The position numbers and the translations under genes were made by a program. A stretch of DNA of 47,792 nt, taken from NCBI GenBank assembly GCA_900550525.1, contig URSN01000003.1, positions 1 to 47,792 on the forward strand, written 5' to 3'. A model generated the notes under the pieces. It had not been told where the DNA came from. It was given only the letters and a program-made list of their open reading frames with translations, and searched no databases. Of this stretch, positions 17,793 to 25,156 are shown in pieces (position 1 is the first letter of the stretch; every line of letters starts with the position of its first letter). The stretch comes from an uncultured Eubacteriales bacterium (GTDB taxonomy: Bacteria > Bacillota > Clostridia > Christensenellales > CAG-138).

Positions 17793-17818
17793 AAAAAAGC
17801 GGCGCAGGCCGCTTTTTT
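17793..17818. terminator. Bidirectional terminator after the permease
   Basis: AAAAAAGCGGC and GCCGCTTTTTT form an 11-base stem around GCAG, with the T-run on either strand. It lies between the permease and the convergent end of the DUF1538 operon. Confidence 0.85.
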
Positions 17819-17872: not shown

Positions 17873-18397
17873 TCAGCGGAAGCTGTTCAAAAGCTCCGCC
17901 AGCGGCGCGACGGTGTCGTTGAGGTTTTTGATCGCGTCGTTGAGCGTCGCAATGTCCAGATTGGCGATGGTCTCCACCGCCCCGTCCATGTCCTCCAGCA
18001 CGGCGTTGAGCGCGGCAAAGTCGAGCGCCGCGATCTGCTCGAGCACCACGGCCGCGTCGCGCGCCACGGCGATGCTCTCGCCCGCCACGGTGTCCAGCTC
18101 CTCGAGCATGCGGCTCACCACCTGCATGTCCAGCGCGGCGATCGCCGCGTCGGCCTGCGCGAGCGTATCGGCCGCCTTTGGCAGCAGCACCGCCGCGGTC
18201 ACGACGGCGGCGAGCGCCACGATGGCCGCCGCCGCGGCGCACAGGCGCAGCAGCGCGGTCTGGCGTTTTTTGTGCGCGTTCTGCGCAAGCAGCAGGTCGC
18301 GGATCTCGGCAAGCAGCGCCGGCTGCCCGGCCGCCTCCGTCTGCGCGCCGTCCCCGGTTTGCGCGGGGCCAAGGCCCGCCTCTTCCCGCAGTTCCAT
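17873..18397 (-). CDS. Single-pass membrane protein with a coiled-coil-like tail, unknown function
   Basis: A 174-residue protein: a charged N-terminal part (residues 1-45), one hydrophobic segment LLRLCAAAAAIVALAAVVTA (about 49-68), then an amphipathic region with recurring units such as ALDMQVVSRMLEEL, ALDFAALNAVLEDM and NLDIATLNDAIKNL, a repeat of about 23-26 residues with Leu-Asp spacing. GGGAGG precedes the ATG at 18397. It is the last gene after the two PII-like genes and is probably cotranscribed, so it may be part of the same system. I do not recognise a family; the layout resembles small membrane-anchored helical scaffolds. Confidence 0.75.
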   Translation of the reverse strand: MELREEAGLGPAQTGDGAQTEAAGQPALLAEIRDLLLAQNAHKKRQTALLRLCAAAAAIVALAAVVTAAVLLPKAADTLAQADAAIAALDMQVVSRMLEELDTVAGESIAVARDAAVVLEQIAALDFAALNAVLEDMDGAVETIANLDIATLNDAIKNLNDTVAPLAELLNSFR

Positions 18398-18466
18398 GTT
18401 CGTTCCTCCCGTATCGTAAAATGTTCCCCGCATCCAATCAGGCGTTCATGCTGCGCGCCGGCGGCC

Positions 18467-18910
18467 TTATTCGCCGCCGGGCGCGCCGCCGCCTGCGCCG
18501 TCCGCGTCCGGCGGCGCGCCGTCTGTCCGCGCCTCAGCCTCGTCTGCCGCGCGCCCGTGCGCGCCCTCCGCCGCCTGCGCCGCGCCGGCCTCCGGCAGGT
18601 CGAGCGGGCCCGTCAGGCCCATGACCTGGTCGACCGGGAGCGAGAAGCAGATGCCGTTGCCGGCCACCTTGAGGTCGGCGTGCTTGCAGATGGCGGTCAT
18701 GATGTCGTTCTTCTTCTCCCGCTCGGTCAGGATCAGCACCAGCTCCTTTTCCGGCTGCACGATGATGCCGAAAAACTTTTCCGCCTCGTGCACGCCGGTG
18801 CCGCGCGCGTGGACGACCGTGCCGCCGGACGCGCCGGCGGCCTTTGCCGCGTCCATGACGAGGTCGGCAAAGCCGCGGTTGATGATGGTCAAGATCAGTT
18901 CATGGCGCAT
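18467..18910 (-). CDS. PII-like signalling protein with a long acidic/Gly-rich tail
   Basis: Residues 1-100 read as a GlnB/PII-like ferredoxin fold: MRHELILTIINRGFADLVMDAAKAAGASGGTVVHARGTG is the first beta-alpha-beta unit with the start of the T-loop region, and IIVQPEKELVLILTE and INGICFSLPVD-like sequence (AGNGICFSLPVDQVMGL) form the second. Residues from about 105 to 147 are Ala/Gly/Glu/Asp-rich and probably disordered. The tyrosine uridylylation site of classical GlnB is not seen. It is the second of two PII-like genes downstream of the DUF1538 gene, 89 bases after the first. By analogy it would bind a nucleotide and gate the transporter; this is inference. Confidence 0.82.
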   Translation of the reverse strand: MRHELILTIINRGFADLVMDAAKAAGASGGTVVHARGTGVHEAEKFFGIIVQPEKELVLILTEREKKNDIMTAICKHADLKVAGNGICFSLPVDQVMGLTGPLDLPEAGAAQAAEGAHGRAADEAEARTDGAPPDADGAGGGAPGGE

Positions 18911-18999
18911 GTCGTTGTCCGCGCTCCGCCGTGCGGAGCCTTCCTTTCTGAGGTCTGTAAGGCCGGTCGTGCCGGCCGGGATGCGGCGCTTTTACGCCG

Positions 19000-19344
19000 T
19001 CAGCCGGAGAAGCCGGAGAGCAGCTCCAGCGTGCGGCGCTCCGCCACGCTCGAGAGCGGGATGCTGAACGCGATGCCGGGGCCGGGCCGGTCCAGGTGCA
19101 GCGCGTCGGCGAGCCGGCGCAGGAAGGCGTCCGCCGCGCTCTCGCGCACGCACAGCAGCACCACGTCCTTCTCCGTTTCGCCAAGGCCCAGGTAGTCGAG
19201 CACGTCGGAATCGGCCGTGCCGTAGCCGTGCAGCGTCAGGTGGAAGGCGATGCGCTCGTGCAGGCACAGATCCGTGATGCGCTCCGCCCTGCCGCGCTCG
19301 ATGATGCACACGATGAGCTTGATCGGTTCGATCGCTTCCGCCAT
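19000..19344 (-). CDS. PII-like signalling protein, compact
   Basis: A 114-residue protein with the same two beta-alpha-beta halves as its neighbour: PIKLIVCIIERGRAERITDLCLHERIAFHLTLHGYGTA, then DVVLLCVRESAADAFLRRLADAL and GPGIAFSIPLSSV, which matches the GICFSLPVDQV segment of the second PII-like protein. It differs strongly elsewhere, so the pair could form hetero-oligomers or sense different ligands. Its ATG is separated by one base from the stop codon of the DUF1538 gene (TGAGATG), so translation is tightly coupled to the membrane protein. Confidence 0.8.
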   Translation of the reverse strand: MAEAIEPIKLIVCIIERGRAERITDLCLHERIAFHLTLHGYGTADSDVLDYLGLGETEKDVVLLCVRESAADAFLRRLADALHLDRPGPGIAFSIPLSSVAERRTLELLSGFSG

Positions 19345-19345
19345 C

Positions 19346-20869
19346 TCAGGCCACCTCCACAGGGAATTCGAAGATCTCGATCTCGGCCGGCTCCGCTGCG
19401 GGCGCCTCCGCCTGCGCGGCGCGGCGCAGCTTGACGCTGTACAGCACGCCCAGCAGCTGTATGGTGATCAGCGGCGTCATGGCGACCATCGCCACCAGGC
19501 CGAACGCGTCCAGCAGGATATCGCCGCCAAGCGCGTCGCACGCGCCCATGGCAAACGGCAGCATGAACGCCGCGGTCATCGGCCCGGAAGCGACGCCGCC
19601 GGAGTCGAACGCCACGGCGGTGAAGATCTTCGGCACGAAGAACGACAGCCCCAGCGCAACGGCATAGCCGCCCACGAGGAAATACCAGATGGAGACGCCC
19701 GTCACCACGCGCAGCATGGCGATGCCGATGGAGACGGCCACGCCGACGGACAGGCTCAGCAGCATGGCCCGCCCGGAGATGGCGCCCACGGTGATCTCCT
19801 CCACCTGCTTGTTGAGCACGTGCACCGCCGGCTCGGCCATGACGACGAAAAAGCCCATCACCATCCCGACGGGGATCAGCCAGCCGGCTGCCGCGCCGCC
19901 CAGGCGGCTGCCCAGCGCGTAGCCCGCGGGCAGGAAGCCCGTGTTCACCCCCGTGAGGAAGAGCACCAGCCCTGCGAAGGTGTACAGCAGGCCCACGGCG
20001 ATCTTGAGCAGGCTCCGGCGCGACAGGCGCAGGAACAGGATCTGGAACACCAAAAAGAACAGCACGATCGGCAGCAGCGCCACCGCCACGTCGGACAGGT
20101 ATTCGGGGAAGTTCTCGCCAAAGAGCGCCGCGATCTCGGAAAAGCTGCGCGGGTCGTGCGCCGAGACGGGCGTGTAGGCGTTTTCACCGGAGGGGTAGAT
20201 CATGCCCAGCACCAGCATGGAGAGGATCGGCCCGATGCTGCACAGCGAGACGAGGCCGAAGCTGTCGTCCTGCGCGCTGTTGCCGCCGCGCACGGCGGCC
20301 ACGCCGATGCCCAGCGCCATGATGAACGGCACGGTGATCGGCCCGGTCGTGACGCCGCCGGAGTCGAACGAGGCGGCGACGAAGCCCTCCGGCGTGAACG
20401 CCGCCAGCGCAAACACCGCCAGATAAAAGACGATCAGCAGCGTTTGCAGCGGCCGGCCAAAAACGATGCGCAGCAGCGCCAGCACGAGGAACAGCCCGCC
20501 GCCCACCGCCACCGTGAGGATCAGCACCGCGTCCGGCACGGTCGGCACCTGCGCGGCCAGCACGGTCAGGTCGGGCTCGGCAATGGTGATCAGCACGCCG
20601 ATGAGGAAGCACACCGGCACGAGGACGGACAGCTTTTTGGATTTGGTCAGGTGCGCGCCCACGCGCTCGCCCATGGGCATCATGGCGATGTCCGCGCCGA
20701 GCGTGAACAGCCCCATGCCCAGCACCAGCATCGCCGCGCCGATCAGGAACAGCCAGAACGTGCCGGCCGGCAGCGGGCACAGCAGCAGATGGATCAGCAC
20801 CACCAGCCCCGTCACCGGCAGCACGGAGGAGAGCGATTCCTTGATTTTTTCGAGCAGCTTTCGGTTCAT
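19346..20869 (-). CDS. DUF1538 family membrane protein, duplicated two-half form
   Basis: A 507-residue integral membrane protein made of two related halves. The signature FDSGGVTTGP at about 168-177 recurs as FDSGGVASGP at 421-430; ITIAEPDLTVLAAQV at about 94-108 recurs as FVVMAEPAVHVLNKQV at 341-356; and the glycine-rich GADIAMMPMGERVG helix of the first half corresponds to GVNTGFLPAGYALG in the second. The conserved polar FDSGG motifs in the membrane suggest a transport path, but the substrate is unknown. First gene of an operon with two PII-like genes. The ATG at 20869 lacks a strong ribosome binding site. The promoter is overlapped by a palindrome, so expression is likely repressed. Confidence 0.88.
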   Translation of the reverse strand: MNRKLLEKIKESLSSVLPVTGLVVLIHLLLCPLPAGTFWLFLIGAAMLVLGMGLFTLGADIAMMPMGERVGAHLTKSKKLSVLVPVCFLIGVLITIAEPDLTVLAAQVPTVPDAVLILTVAVGGGLFLVLALLRIVFGRPLQTLLIVFYLAVFALAAFTPEGFVAASFDSGGVTTGPITVPFIMALGIGVAAVRGGNSAQDDSFGLVSLCSIGPILSMLVLGMIYPSGENAYTPVSAHDPRSFSEIAALFGENFPEYLSDVAVALLPIVLFFLVFQILFLRLSRRSLLKIAVGLLYTFAGLVLFLTGVNTGFLPAGYALGSRLGGAAAGWLIPVGMVMGFFVVMAEPAVHVLNKQVEEITVGAISGRAMLLSLSVGVAVSIGIAMLRVVTGVSIWYFLVGGYAVALGLSFFVPKIFTAVAFDSGGVASGPMTAAFMLPFAMGACDALGGDILLDAFGLVAMVAMTPLITIQLLGVLYSVKLRRAAQAEAPAAEPAEIEIFEFPVEVA

Positions 20870-20960
20870 CCGTCGTATCCGCCGTTTCGCTGAAGATGTG
20901 CGCCGGGCGGCCCGGGCGCGGCGGCAAAGGGCGCGGCCCTTCTTAATGCCATCTTTATAT

Positions 20961-20979
20961 GTATGGTATCTTACCATAC
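20961..20979. promoter_or_regulatory. Perfect 19-bp palindromic operator upstream of the DUF1538/PII operon
   Basis: GTATGGTA-TCT-TACCATAC, with two perfect 8-base arms and a 3-base centre. It covers the -10 box of the minus-strand promoter, so a bound dimer would block RNA polymerase. The regulator is not encoded next to it as far as I can see; the shape is compatible with GntR-type or other winged-helix repressors. Confidence 0.65.
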
Positions 20980-20997
20980 CGCCCGGCCGCCGGTCAA
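20968..20997 (-). promoter_or_regulatory. Promoter of the DUF1538-PII operon
   Basis: TTGACC (20997-20992), an 18-base spacer and TAAGAT (20973-20968) on the minus strand. Transcription would start near 20961 at the edge of the palindrome, leaving a leader of about 90 nt. Confidence 0.55.
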
Positions 20998-21076: not shown

Positions 21077-22375
21077 TTACTGCGCGGTGGTGGAGACGCC
21101 AGCATCGCCCTTGTAGTAGAGCTTGTCGACGAGGAAGTAGATCACGCCCGCCACGACCATGGCGTTGACGGCCGAGATGCCCCAGCTGAACGTGGGGATG
21201 ATCGTGCCGCCGGTCAGGTTGCCGACGATCGCGCCGGCGACCACGCCCGCGATCGCGCCCCAGTTGATCTTGCGGTGGACCACGGTGTCCGCACCGTAGC
21301 TGGCGCGGTGCATGAAGTAGTCCATCATGATGATCATGCCGATGGGCGGCAGCGTCGCGTTGAGGAAGTTCAGCCAGCTGACGAAGTTGTTGTACAGCCA
21401 CACGGCCAGCGCCGTGCCGAGCACGCCGGAGACGATGACCATCGGGCGCTTGCGCACCTTGGTGATGTTCGACAGGCCGAGGCTGCCGGTGTAGAGCGCG
21501 TTGTCGTTCGTGGTCCAGATGTTCGCGCCGAGCACGATGATGGCCGGGATGGCCAGGCCCTGCGCGATCATGACGTAGAAGATGTCGTCCTTGCCCGTGT
21601 ACGCGCCGCCGACCGCGCCGAAGCAGAACATCAGCATGTTGCCGATGGTGAACGCGATGACCGTCACCACCGTGACGCTGAGCTTCGTGCGGCCAAAGCG
21701 CGCGAAGTTCGGCGTGGCCGTGCCGCCGCTGATGACCGAGCCGATGACCGCCGCCACGCCGCCCAGCAGCGTCATGGTGCCGGTGGACTTTTCAAAGATC
21801 GTGACGAGGCCGCCGCCGTCGATGACCGCCGTGACCATCGAGTAGATGCCCAGCACGGCGATCAGCGGCACGGAGACCCAGCTGACGATCTCAATGCCCT
21901 TCACGCCGAAGTAGGCGGATGTGGTCATACACGCGCCGCAGGCGATGATCAGCACCCACAGCAGGTGGTCGATGCCGAACGTCGTGGCCACCGGGTAGGC
22001 GAACATCGCCGCGCCGACGCCGAACCAGCCGATCTGCGTGACGGCGATGAGCACCGAGGGCAGGTAGGAGCCGACCGTGCCGAACGAGCGGTGCGCCAGC
22101 AGGTCGAAGGACAGGCCGGTGTCGCCGCCGATCCAGGCGAGCAGGCCCGTGTAGATGCCCAGGAAGATGCTGCCGATGATCAGCGCCCACAGGAACGTCC
22201 ACAGGTCCATGCCGTTTGCCATCTTGGCGCCGGCGCTCATGCTGGCGGAGAAGAACGTGAAGCCCATCATGATGACGAACATCGCGCCTGCTCCCTTGCG
22301 TGCCGATTGCGGAACGACTTCCAGTGAGTAATCCGGGTCTACATGCTGCTGTTTGACTTCTTTGACTTCTTCCAT
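21077..22375 (-). CDS. codB: Cytosine/purine permease, NCS1 family (CodB-like)
   Basis: A 432-residue transporter with about 12 hydrophobic segments. Typical NCS1 features are GAGAMFVIMMGFTFFSASM in the first helix, GDTGLSFDLLAHRSFG after helix 2, IGWFGVGAAMFAYP in helix 3 and the long ANIWTTNDNALYTGSLGLSNI segment in the middle, all as in CodB-type cytosine permeases. The start at 22375 follows AAAGGGAGG. The divergent lacI-preA genes support a role in pyrimidine uptake. Expression comes from a promoter about 470 bases upstream through a long leader. Exact substrate (cytosine or another nucleobase) is inferred. Confidence 0.92.
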   Translation of the reverse strand: MEEVKEVKQQHVDPDYSLEVVPQSARKGAGAMFVIMMGFTFFSASMSAGAKMANGMDLWTFLWALIIGSIFLGIYTGLLAWIGGDTGLSFDLLAHRSFGTVGSYLPSVLIAVTQIGWFGVGAAMFAYPVATTFGIDHLLWVLIIACGACMTTSAYFGVKGIEIVSWVSVPLIAVLGIYSMVTAVIDGGGLVTIFEKSTGTMTLLGGVAAVIGSVISGGTATPNFARFGRTKLSVTVVTVIAFTIGNMLMFCFGAVGGAYTGKDDIFYVMIAQGLAIPAIIVLGANIWTTNDNALYTGSLGLSNITKVRKRPMVIVSGVLGTALAVWLYNNFVSWLNFLNATLPPIGMIIMMDYFMHRASYGADTVVHRKINWGAIAGVVAGAIVGNLTGGTIIPTFSWGISAVNAMVVAGVIYFLVDKLYYKGDAGVSTTAQ

Positions 22376-22838
22376 GCTTTGACCTCCCTTTCTGTACTGT
22401 TGGCTGTTGGGAAACGCCGCTTACCATTCTATACTATAAGGGCGCAGTGATGGCCGATGCCTGTATGTGTGTCCTCCGGCGCCCGCGCGGGCGGCTGTGG
22501 GCAAAATGTCGCGCTGCGCCGCAGCTGCGTCCGTGCGCGCCGGCGGCGGGGGGCGGATATGGCCGCGTCGGGGCCGGGATGCAAATCGTCAAGGGCCGTT
22601 GGGTTCGGCCGGACGGTACAACGCGTCCGGGTGTCGTATCGGATCCTGCAACGGGCGGTTGCGGGCAGATCAGGTCGTTGGGGTGCGGCTGCGGCGGATG
22701 TCGGTAAGGTCGTTGCGGCCTGTGCGCCGCGCGCTGCATGGTTTGTGATGGTCGATCGTTGATCGGTGTGGCCGGCGGCGCCGGCCTTTGCTCTCTGCCG
22801 CTGCGGCAGCTGGCGATGTAACCAGATACATTTATGTT
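22376..22838 (-). other. Long untranslated leader of codB, about 460 nt
   Basis: No credible gene is present in 22376-22838. The only sizeable frame (22739-22434) is Arg/Pro-rich and has no ribosome binding site. Between the strong promoter at 22873-22845 and the codB ATG the RNA would be long and GC-rich, with hairpins at 22794-22808 (CTGCCGC/GCGGCAG) and 22770-22786 (GGCCGGC/GCCGGCC). I could not match a known riboswitch. A second TATAGT-like -10 near 22437-22432 could give a shorter transcript. Confidence 0.4.
22816..22831. promoter_or_regulatory. Palindromic operator candidate inside the codB transcript start
   Basis: ATGTA-ACCAGA-TACAT, a perfect 5-base inverted repeat with a 6-base centre, lies about 7-22 bases downstream of the predicted codB transcription start. 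A repressor bound here would block early elongation. The LacI-family regulator encoded divergently is the obvious candidate. Confidence 0.5.
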
Positions 22839-22844
22839 ATTTTT

Positions 22845-22873
22845 ATACTAACGCATGGCGACGCGCCTGTCAA
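22845..22873 (-). promoter_or_regulatory. codB promoter
   Basis: A perfect TTGACA (22873-22868), a 17-base spacer and TAGTAT (22850-22845) on the minus strand. Confidence 0.75.
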
Positions 22874-22930
22874 TCCCTTCCGACACATTTTTTTCATAAT
22901 TCGCGCGGCGCCGGTGCGGGCCGTCCCGCC

Positions 22931-22959
22931 TTGCCGCGGACGTGCCGTCATGGTATAAT
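22931..22959 (+). promoter_or_regulatory. lacI-preA promoter
   Basis: TTGCCG (22931-22936), 17 bases and a perfect TATAAT (22954-22959). Transcription would start near 22966, leaving a leader of about 40 nt before the TTG start codon. Confidence 0.7.
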
Positions 22960-23004
22960 CCCTGTACGGGCCGCTCCGGCGGCCGACAGGGGGGAGGGGC
23001 ACGC

Positions 23005-24021
23005 TTGAACATCAAGGAGATCGCCAGGGCGGCGGGCGTATCGGTCGCCACCATATCGCGGGTGCTCAACCACCCGGAGCAGGTGCTGCCGGAAACGCGC
23101 GAGCATGTGCTCGCGGTCATGAAGGAGCATCATTACACGCCCAACTGGTTCGCCCGCGGGCTGAACCTCGGCCGCACGAACACCATCGCGCTGCTGGTGC
23201 CGAACCTGGAGCTCAACCGCTTCCAGCAGCTCATCTGCGGCGTGGAGACCGTCGCGCGCAGCAAGCAGTACGCGGTCATCCTCTGCCATACGGAAAACGA
23301 CCCGGCGCAGGAGCTGGCCTATCTGGAGATGGTGCGCACGCGCCACATCGACGGCGTGATCTTCGCGCCCTCGTCGCTTTCGCGCCAGCAGCGCGAGCCG
23401 CTTCTTTCCGACGGCGTGCCCTGCGTGCACGTGGGGCGCGGCGCCGAGAGCGGCTTTGACGCCATGTGCTATATCGACCAGGAGGAGAGCGCCTTCCGCC
23501 TGACGCAGCACCTGCTCTCGCTCGGGCACGAATCGATCGGGCTGCTGCTGGATGACCGGCTGCGCCTTGAGGCAGCGCAGGTCGAGGCCGGGTGCCGGCG
23601 CGCGCTCGCGGGCACGCAGGCGCGCTTGATGCTCTGGTCGTGCCGCAGCACGATCCCGGACGGCTTCAACGCGGGCTACCGCATCCTGCGCGCCGGCGGG
23701 AAGCCGCCGCGCGCGCTCATCACCTCCAGCGACCGGCAGGCGTTCGGCGTGCTGCGCGCGGCGGAGCGGCTCGACGTCGCCGTGCCGGAGGAGCTGGCGC
23801 TGGCCACGCTTGCGGATTCGCCGCTGTGCCCGATCGTCTCCCCGGCGGTCACGGGCATGGAGCAGCCGACGGCGCGGCTCGGCATGCTGGCCGCGCGCAT
23901 GCTCTTCGACCGGATCGAGAGCGGCGCGCCCGCCGCCGCGCAGGAGATCGTCCTGCAGCCCAAGCTGAAGATCCGCCGCTCCTGCGGCAACCGCAAGCAC
24001 ATTTACGAACTGTTCGATTGA
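23005..24021 (+). CDS. LacI family transcriptional regulator
   Basis: DNA-binding repressor/activator of LacI type, 338 residues. The N-terminal helix-turn-helix NIKEIARAAGVSVATISRVL and hinge region NWFARGLNLGRTNTIALLVP are followed by the periplasmic-binding-like ligand domain (VIFAPSSLSRQ, LGHESIGLLLDD, ALITSSDRQAFGVLRA). The frame starts at the TTG at 23005, placed by GGGGAGGGG seven bases upstream; the ATG upstream at 22942 lies within the promoter. Divergent from codB and 10 bases ahead of preA, so it probably controls both; the palindrome at 22816-22831 is a likely site. Confidence 0.88.
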   Translation: MNIKEIARAAGVSVATISRVLNHPEQVLPETREHVLAVMKEHHYTPNWFARGLNLGRTNTIALLVPNLELNRFQQLICGVETVARSKQYAVILCHTENDPAQELAYLEMVRTRHIDGVIFAPSSLSRQQREPLLSDGVPCVHVGRGAESGFDAMCYIDQEESAFRLTQHLLSLGHESIGLLLDDRLRLEAAQVEAGCRRALAGTQARLMLWSCRSTIPDGFNAGYRILRAGGKPPRALITSSDRQAFGVLRAAERLDVAVPEELALATLADSPLCPIVSPAVTGMEQPTARLGMLAARMLFDRIESGAPAAAQEIVLQPKLKIRRSCGNRKHIYELFD

Positions 24022-24031
24022 GGAGGACGGC

Positions 24032-25156
24032 ATGGATCTGTCTGTGGATCTGGGCGAACTGAAACTGAAGAACCCCGTCATGGTCGCCGCCGGGCCCTGG
24101 GCGCGCGACGCGGCGTCCATCCGCCGCTGCGTCGAGGCCGGCGCGGGCGCCGTCATCACGGAGACGCTCTCGCTCGAGGCCAACGCGAACCTCAGCCCGC
24201 GCCTGTATGTGGGCGGCAACGGGCAGCTGTTCAACACGAAGCTGTATTCGAACATCCAGCTCGAGCAGTGGGAGATGGAGCTGGAGACGCTCGAGCGCGG
24301 GGACTGCCGGCTCATCGTCAGCATCTGGGGCAGCTCCGCCTCGGAGTTGTCGTACCTGGCGGAGCGGGCGGAGCGCATGGGGGCCGACGCGGTGGAGATC
24401 AGCGTTTCCGCGCCCATCGGCACGCGCAACAAATCGCTCAGCTACCATACGCCGCACCTGCTCGAGTGTGCGCGCGCGGTTGTGAACACCGTGGGCGTGC
24501 CGGTGCTCGCCAAGCTCTCCTACGAGGTGGGCAACTCGCCGGAGATCATGGACGCGCTGTATCAGGCTGGCGTGCGCATCGTCAGCGCGATCGACGCGCT
24601 CAAGGGCATCTCCGGCGTGGATGTGGAGCGCCGCCGCGCGCTGATGCCGACCTACGGCGGCTACAGCGGGGAGAACATCCGCCCCGCCGCGCTGGCGACG
24701 ACCGCGGCGCTGCGGCAGTATACGCCGTTTCGCATCTGCGGCTGCGGCGGCATCTTTACCGCGGAGAACGCGCTCGAATACCTCATGCTCGGCGCGGACG
24801 CGGTGCAGCTTGCGTCCGTCATCCAGCTGCGCGGGTACGAGGCCATCGCGCAGGTGCTCGAGGGGCTTGCCGCATGGCTGTCCGCCCACGGGCATGAGGA
24901 TATCTCCCGCGTGCGCGGCGCGGCGCTGCCCTCGCTCATGCCGTTTGAGGATGTCCGGCCCAAGCCGCTCACCGTCGTGCTGCGCGAGCCGTGCGAGGAC
25001 GCCGCCTGCGACCTGTGCATCCACGGCTGCCTGTACGGGGCCGTCTCGCGCGACGAAGCCGGCTGCATCCGCATCGACCCCGCCCGCTGCGACGGCTGCG
25101 GCCTGTGCAGCGCCCGCTGCCCGCAGCGGCGCATCATGCTCTGCTGGCAGCAGTGA
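24032..25156 (+). CDS. PreA-like dihydropyrimidine dehydrogenase / dihydroorotate dehydrogenase family protein with C-terminal 2[4Fe-4S] domain
   Basis: The first about 300 residues form an FMN-binding barrel of dihydroorotate/dihydropyrimidine dehydrogenase type: LKLKNPVMVAAGPWAR at the start, VEISVSAP in the middle, VPVLAKLSYEV and ICGCGGIFTAENALEYLMLGADAVQLAS (FMN phosphate binding) later. The C-terminus has eight cysteines in two sets, CEDAACDLCIHGC and CDGCGLCSARCP, suggesting two iron-sulfur clusters, as in PreA. It lies in an operon with a LacI regulator and divergent from a cytosine permease, which fits pyrimidine reduction. The partner flavoprotein PreT is not in this window. Dihydroorotate dehydrogenase remains an alternative. 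Confidence 0.8.
   Translation: MDLSVDLGELKLKNPVMVAAGPWARDAASIRRCVEAGAGAVITETLSLEANANLSPRLYVGGNGQLFNTKLYSNIQLEQWEMELETLERGDCRLIVSIWGSSASELSYLAERAERMGADAVEISVSAPIGTRNKSLSYHTPHLLECARAVVNTVGVPVLAKLSYEVGNSPEIMDALYQAGVRIVSAIDALKGISGVDVERRRALMPTYGGYSGENIRPAALATTAALRQYTPFRICGCGGIFTAENALEYLMLGADAVQLASVIQLRGYEAIAQVLEGLAAWLSAHGHEDISRVRGAALPSLMPFEDVRPKPLTVVLREPCEDAACDLCIHGCLYGAVSRDEAGCIRIDPARCDGCGLCSARCPQRRIMLCWQQ

Follow-up and report, generated by a model that had tools for sequence, protein, structure and literature searches.

The 47,792-nucleotide stretch analysed here (the window) spans positions 1 to 47,792 of contig URSN01000003.1 from an uncultured Eubacteriales bacterium. It carries a run of minus-strand genes at 17873..20997 (window coordinates throughout) that encode a two-repeat DUF1538 membrane transporter, two PII-like proteins and a helical membrane protein. 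All four genes lie on the strand and at the places described in a first-pass annotation made from the sequence alone. PII proteins are known chiefly for sensing nitrogen. At this locus, we propose that a DUF1538 (UmpAB) family protein acting as a cation/proton antiporter is encoded together with two dedicated PII-like regulators, a reading to which we assign a probability of roughly two in three and in which gating and ligand are the conditional parts. Gene linkage, matching domain number, the PII fold and loss of the ATP-phosphate lysine motif are established computationally. The genes are as follows.

19346..20869, minus strand: DUF1538 membrane transporter with two fused repeats (UmpA/UmpB-like), 507 amino acids (aa); PF07556 twice, E 6e-135, 447.5 bits
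19000..19344, minus strand: PII-A, a diverged PII-like protein, 114 aa; its start is coupled to the end of DUF1538
18467..18910, minus strand: PII-B, a PII-like protein, 147 aa; PF00543 at E 3e-9; C-terminal tail unconserved
17873..18397, minus strand: single-pass helical membrane protein, 174 aa; ATG at 18397, a single, strongly hydrophobic stretch at about residues 46-74

The transporter and PII-A genes meet in TGAGATG on the coding strand, the tight coupling that the first-pass annotation had pointed out, and gaps of 89 and 69 base pairs (bp) separate PII-A from PII-B and PII-B from the helical gene. With its two PF07556 copies, the transporter belongs to DUF1538, scoring 447.5 bits against a Pfam gathering score of 22.6. 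Its AlphaFold2 model is all helical with a predicted local distance difference test score of 83, and a structure search with this model gave no confident match, the weak rows for NCX, EAAT and CLC excluding no family. PII-B has a profile that matches GlnK/PII chains (best E 2e-5). PII-A has no match in Pfam or NCBIfam; profile-profile comparison (hhalign) relates it to PII-B with a probability of 99.1%, its profile reaches the P-II chain 9p1x_H in the PDB at E 7e-4, and its homologous domain in a tandem relative (L012) is predicted to adopt the PII fold. By profile comparison and the predicted fold of that tandem protein, PII-A is a member of the PII superfamily. The modelled fold is the ferredoxin-like one of this superfamily, in keeping with the earlier description of two PII-like proteins.

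A scan with the window DUF1538 protein returned 24 loci. PF07556 is present in 101 of the 299 genomes searched in the phylum that includes an Anaerotruncus colihominis genome and in 26 of 81 in that of a Synergistaceae genome, and 80 further regions for the linkage survey were taken from PF07556-bearing genomes. The resulting sample holds 108 DUF1538 gene sets at 105 loci, the window included; these loci are often related, two of them (L014 and L146, both on contigs of 10,069 bases) are apparently one locus twice, and they do not amount to 105 independent events. A PII domain lies downstream of DUF1538 on the same strand in 104 of the 105 testable gene sets, namely those with more than 900 bp of downstream sequence. 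Among the three sets with 900 bp or less, L001 and L123 carry two PII domains and L020 stops at a contig edge. Two hidden Markov models (HMMs), one iterated from window PII-A and one from window PII-B, both settled on 193 domains, carried by the same 124 open reading frames (ORFs), and all 193 sit downstream of DUF1538 in this position. DUF1538 was also matched in nine plasmid records, and in all six that were opened PII follows DUF1538 immediately downstream. On the Chelativorans and Methylocystis (alphaproteobacteria) plasmids the order is DUF1538-DUF1538-P-II, the first DUF1538 gene of Chelativorans being short. The Peptoclostridium, Paraclostridium and Vescimonas plasmids carry DUF1538 with one P-II gene, tandem in both cases scanned (L167, L168), and an unannotated Subdoligranulum plasmid carries DUF1538 with a tandem PII.

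Co-occurrence across whole genomes was assessed by running the PII-B profile against 70 genomes, 35 with and 35 without DUF1538, 15 of the latter being classed so by their absence from the PF07556 match list. Strong matches (E <1e-20) occur in 34 of the 35 genomes with DUF1538 and in none of the 35 without, three of which give weak matches (best E 5e-7). A DUF1538 match lies no more than ~1 kb from 42 of the 43 strong PII places. DUF1538-PII gene linkage is near-obligatory, and the arrangement goes beyond chance because it is conserved across relatives; a lack of conserved linkage, which would have refuted the first-pass reading, is not what the survey shows. Other operon partners were sought by clustering 847 neighbouring ORFs, with the largest cluster, ABC ATPase-like and generic, reaching 12 of the 105 loci and the rest six loci or fewer.

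The number of PII domains follows the number of DUF1538 domains. Each of ten single-domain DUF1538 genes has one PII, and 84 of 94 two-domain sets have two PII domains (the set at L019, interrupted by a run of N, was kept apart from these classes). Both PII domains share one polypeptide at 69 of 87 two-PII loci, and a database search with one tandem PII protein found 641 homologues, the 120 matches listed being of tandem size (224-315 aa). In a tree of the UmpAB-linked PIIs, 173 of 174 A/B labels fall on the expected side of a single branch (support 0.96), and the 19 single PIIs all fall with the B domains. The DUF1538 domain tree, built without L019, L020 and L088, cleanly separates 95 N-halves, 95 C-halves and 10 singles (support 0.999 and 0.988), and the N- and C-half clades stand apart in 190 of 190 domains. 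The single form is one clade, which argues for one duplication event and not many, and judging from these trees transporter and PII seem to have duplicated in parallel. It is very improbable that the PII-like proteins act elsewhere, for example in transcription or metabolism, and share a transcript with the transporter only to register ion or pH stress, given the strict linkage, the duplication in step with the transporter and the lack of a third recurrent gene as the other target.

Residues in the ligand cleft distinguish these proteins from GlnK. ATP contacts in GlnK are made by Thr29, Ile38, Gln39, Gly87, Lys90, Val64, Arg101 and Arg103, with Phe92 against the adenine, and the carboxylate of 2-oxoglutarate is contacted by Arg9 and Lys58 (PMC8395244). 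In the PII-B profile Thr29, both glycines and Phe92 are retained, Lys90, Arg101 and Arg103 are lost, and the T-loop is ~5-6 residues shorter than that of GlnK; window PII-A aligns a Leu with Thr29. The ATP-phosphate lysine motif GxGKxF is present in 32 of 34 canonical PIIs versus none of 101 antiporter-linked PIIs sampled (71 of the 193 UmpAB-linked domains and 30 domains linked to PF00999 antiporters). We infer from these residues that PII-B would hold an adenine-type ligand but lack the canonical triphosphate grip; because adenine-side features are kept in PII-B and triphosphate contacts lost, the ligand would be other than ATP/2-oxoglutarate. Loss of the phosphate contacts and the Leu in PII-A, together with the near one-to-one domain number and near-obligatory linkage, would also be expected if the PII-like proteins were obligatory structural subunits of the antiporter and not ligand-responsive switches. 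We regard this as improbable, since the PII-B profile retains Thr29, both glycines and the adenine-flanking Phe, and since the sole DUF1538 function study found, on the heterodimeric Na+(Li+,K+)/H+ antiporter UmpAB from Halomonas zhaodongensis, describes activity in E. coli cells that were given no cognate PII (PMC5484666).

A related PII group adjoins a second antiporter family. Six weak PII-B matches outside DUF1538 loci were opened, and four of them adjoin PF00999 Na+/H+ exchangers. Across 299 genomes a profile of these four finds 71 strong places, separated by a gap from weak matches, many of which coincide with UmpAB-linked PIIs. At the PF00999-linked loci (L179-L182, L185-L214 and L246-L284), the 30 best, among them the four discovery loci, all have a PF00999-like ORF next to the PII and on its strand; regions of the other 41 places yielded 40 PII ORFs, 36 of them with such a neighbour, for an overall adjacency of 66/70 (62/66 without the discovery loci). 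The same antiporter HMM finds nothing at 80 DUF1538 loci or in the 1.5-kb flanks of 30 canonical PII loci. The canonical (34), PF00999-linked (30) and sampled UmpAB-linked (71) PIIs each form one group when placed in a joint unrooted tree (support 1.0, 0.96 and 0.81). All 34 canonical PIIs, mostly the best-scoring PF00543 set and thus leaning to typical GlnB/GlnK, split from all 101 antiporter-linked ones with support 1.0, placing the latter outside the canonical GlnB/GlnK clade. The UmpAB-linked and PF00999-linked groups may be sisters. More tentatively, at somewhat less than even odds, an unrecognised PII branch may gate monovalent cation/proton antiporters of at least two unrelated families in response to a ligand other than ATP/2-oxoglutarate, with co-duplication in the UmpAB line giving one PII per transporter half and leading to tandem PIIs and to hetero-PII assembly on a transporter that is not a trimer.

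The four misses among the PF00999-linked loci are L260, where the contig stops 38 bp past the PII, and L278, L281 and L283, which have another context; at these three, an ORF of ~485-502 aa with a signal-like start lies within ~160 bp of the PII. Elsewhere among the weak PII-B matches, the PII gene at L184 adjoins an ammonium transporter (PF00909) and that at L183 adjoins what is presumably a nifH-like gene.

The first-pass annotation had left the substrate blank. For the family this no longer holds, given the Na+(Li+,K+)/H+ antiport of UmpAB, whereas for the window protein itself the cargo, Na+/K+, is suggested by analogy with UmpAB and by the related PII group beside PF00999 antiporters. Against the NCBIfam UmpA and UmpB models (NF041627 and NF041628), both equivalog models of single halves, the window protein reaches 163.8 of 490 and 138.3 of 500 bits, so far under the cut-offs that the substrate transfers weakly. 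This shortfall would suit a different cargo, with the PII pair still regulating DUF1538 directly, namely a nitrogen compound, bicarbonate or an organic ion, in a nitrogen/carbon uptake switch of the AmtB-GlnK or SbtA-SbtB kind. The PII-controlled transporters covered in the available review text carry ammonium, nitrate/nitrite, urea or bicarbonate, and the gene immediately upstream in the window is cytosine-permease-like. Such a switch is nonetheless unlikely: the only assayed DUF1538 pair found is reported as an antiporter (PMC5484666), no gene family recurs beside the module at more than 12 of 105 loci, the GlnK ATP contacts are lost, and the related PIIs adjoin PF00999 antiporters.

Several observations weigh against a DUF1538 antiporter with two dedicated PII regulators. 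Besides the sub-threshold UmpA/UmpB scores, the activity of UmpAB in E. coli implies that a cognate PII is dispensable for transport. Nine two-domain DUF1538 sets have one PII and another, L115, has none, with no PII in the three minus-strand frames of 1.5 kb around its DUF1538 3' end. Genome G069 has DUF1538, as a weak match, and no strong PII of this type; conversely, one of the 43 strong places (L170, G114:C13) has a UmpAB-type PII with no DUF1538 within 4 kb. The A/B split is also less clean in the joint tree with other PIIs (21/26; 29/45 plus 5 others).

If the locus does encode a regulated antiporter, PII-A and PII-B, fused into a single polypeptide in most relatives surveyed, would form a joint assembly, probably of stacked or mixed trimers, and would dock through their shortened T-loops on the cytosolic face of the two-repeat antiporter. 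Docking is proposed by analogy with AmtB-GlnK and SbtA-SbtB, in which T-loops are described as entering the transporter (PMC8352866, PMC10710835). AMP, ADP, cyclic AMP or another small ligand, rather than ATP/2-oxoglutarate, would occupy the PII cleft, and its binding would release or insert the T-loops so that the antiport rate follows the cell's energy or pH/ion state. An acidic C-terminal DUF1538 tail was considered as a general PII docking motif and rejected as too rare. The acidic-hydrophobic (DEEIIDY/EIFEF-like) tail occurs in 23 of 72 fused DUF1538 proteins, including that of the window, in 1 of 25 second-half proteins, namely L019, a fused protein broken by N, and in none of 11 single proteins.

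Linkage and fold support the earlier suggestion of AmtB-GlnK-like logic around another transporter, one with PII-like proteins of its own. As in AmtB-GlnK, where canonical PII serves an ammonium channel, the transporter gene is closely linked to a PII-fold gene, and direct T-loop control is the proposed parallel. Unlike AmtB-GlnK, the module has a transporter unrelated to AmtB and two PII paralogues, often fused, that lack GxGKxF and the T-loop YRG and have the shorter T-loop. SbtA, which transports bicarbonate, is described as a trimeric symporter served by one PII-like protein, whereas the module has two PIIs and DUF1538 is another family, assayed as an antiporter. The PF00999 (CPA2-type) antiporters have a PII partner from the related group, with GxGKxF likewise lost and a similar C-terminal GxxFxxPVxxVxGL-like signature, but they are of another antiporter family and the partner has one PII domain. 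NifI1 and NifI2 of nif operons are separate genes and not a fusion. Like PII-A and PII-B, they are described as always encoded together, with unusual oligomerisation suggested, and unlike what is proposed here they regulate nitrogen fixation (PMC8395244). UmpAB shares the Pfam family and has homologous halves that are paired or fused, but its published description, in the text available, has no PII partner and the window protein falls below the UmpA/UmpB cut-offs (PMC5484666).

In that available text 'P-II' has 0 occurrences, and the section on the locus names no ORF after umpB. DUF1538 is listed among the top 20 Pfam families in a growth-pH model (PMC13255231), whose available text likewise has 0 occurrences of P-II. 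Transporter-PII pairs are already known; what appears new, within the open-licence PubMed Central literature judged by titles and abstract openings, where no DUF1538-PII or antiporter-PII link was found, is the pairing with transporters of the DUF1538 class, the tandem form of PII and the branch linked to PF00999. The near-constant pairing points to previously unreported on/off control of such antiporters. If the proposal is correct, a large PII branch with ties to two antiporter families would extend PII control to ion and pH homeostasis and provide a function for genes now named 'P-II family nitrogen regulator'. Tandem PII proteins also offer a direct test bed for hetero-oligomer logic.

The helical membrane protein, counted as part of the module in the first-pass annotation, is not supported in that place. 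A search of 5.8 billion proteins gave four rows, one of them the window's own, all Pfam matches are below cut-off, and tblastn found no match in the relatives' loci tested, the nearest relative (L001) ending inside PII-B. It was rejected as a fourth subunit and is probably not part of the module, lying downstream in the same direction.

The remaining features of the locus are these.

20968..20997, minus strand: promoter-like site TTGACC-18-TAAGAT; motif scan found 1 in the region, 0.3 expected
20961-20979: perfect palindrome with 8-bp arms, GTATGGTA-TCT-TACCATAC (plus strand), operator-like, holding the second hexamer of the promoter-like site; read from sequence
17793..17818, no strand assigned: hairpin with A- and T-runs on either side; read from sequence, absent from scan output

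The promoter-like site (20997-20968) stands 5' of the DUF1538 gene, which suggests a transcription unit separate from the cytosine-permease-like gene farther upstream. As a conserved operator the palindrome was discarded, not being seen in the eight upstream regions inspected. The hairpin, between the helical gene and a convergent amino-acid permease, is likely a two-way terminator. Upstream, at 21077-25156, lie the cytosine-permease-like gene, a LacI-type regulator and a dihydropyrimidine/dihydroorotate dehydrogenase-like gene with a 4Fe-4S tail, possibly a pyrimidine-use cluster.

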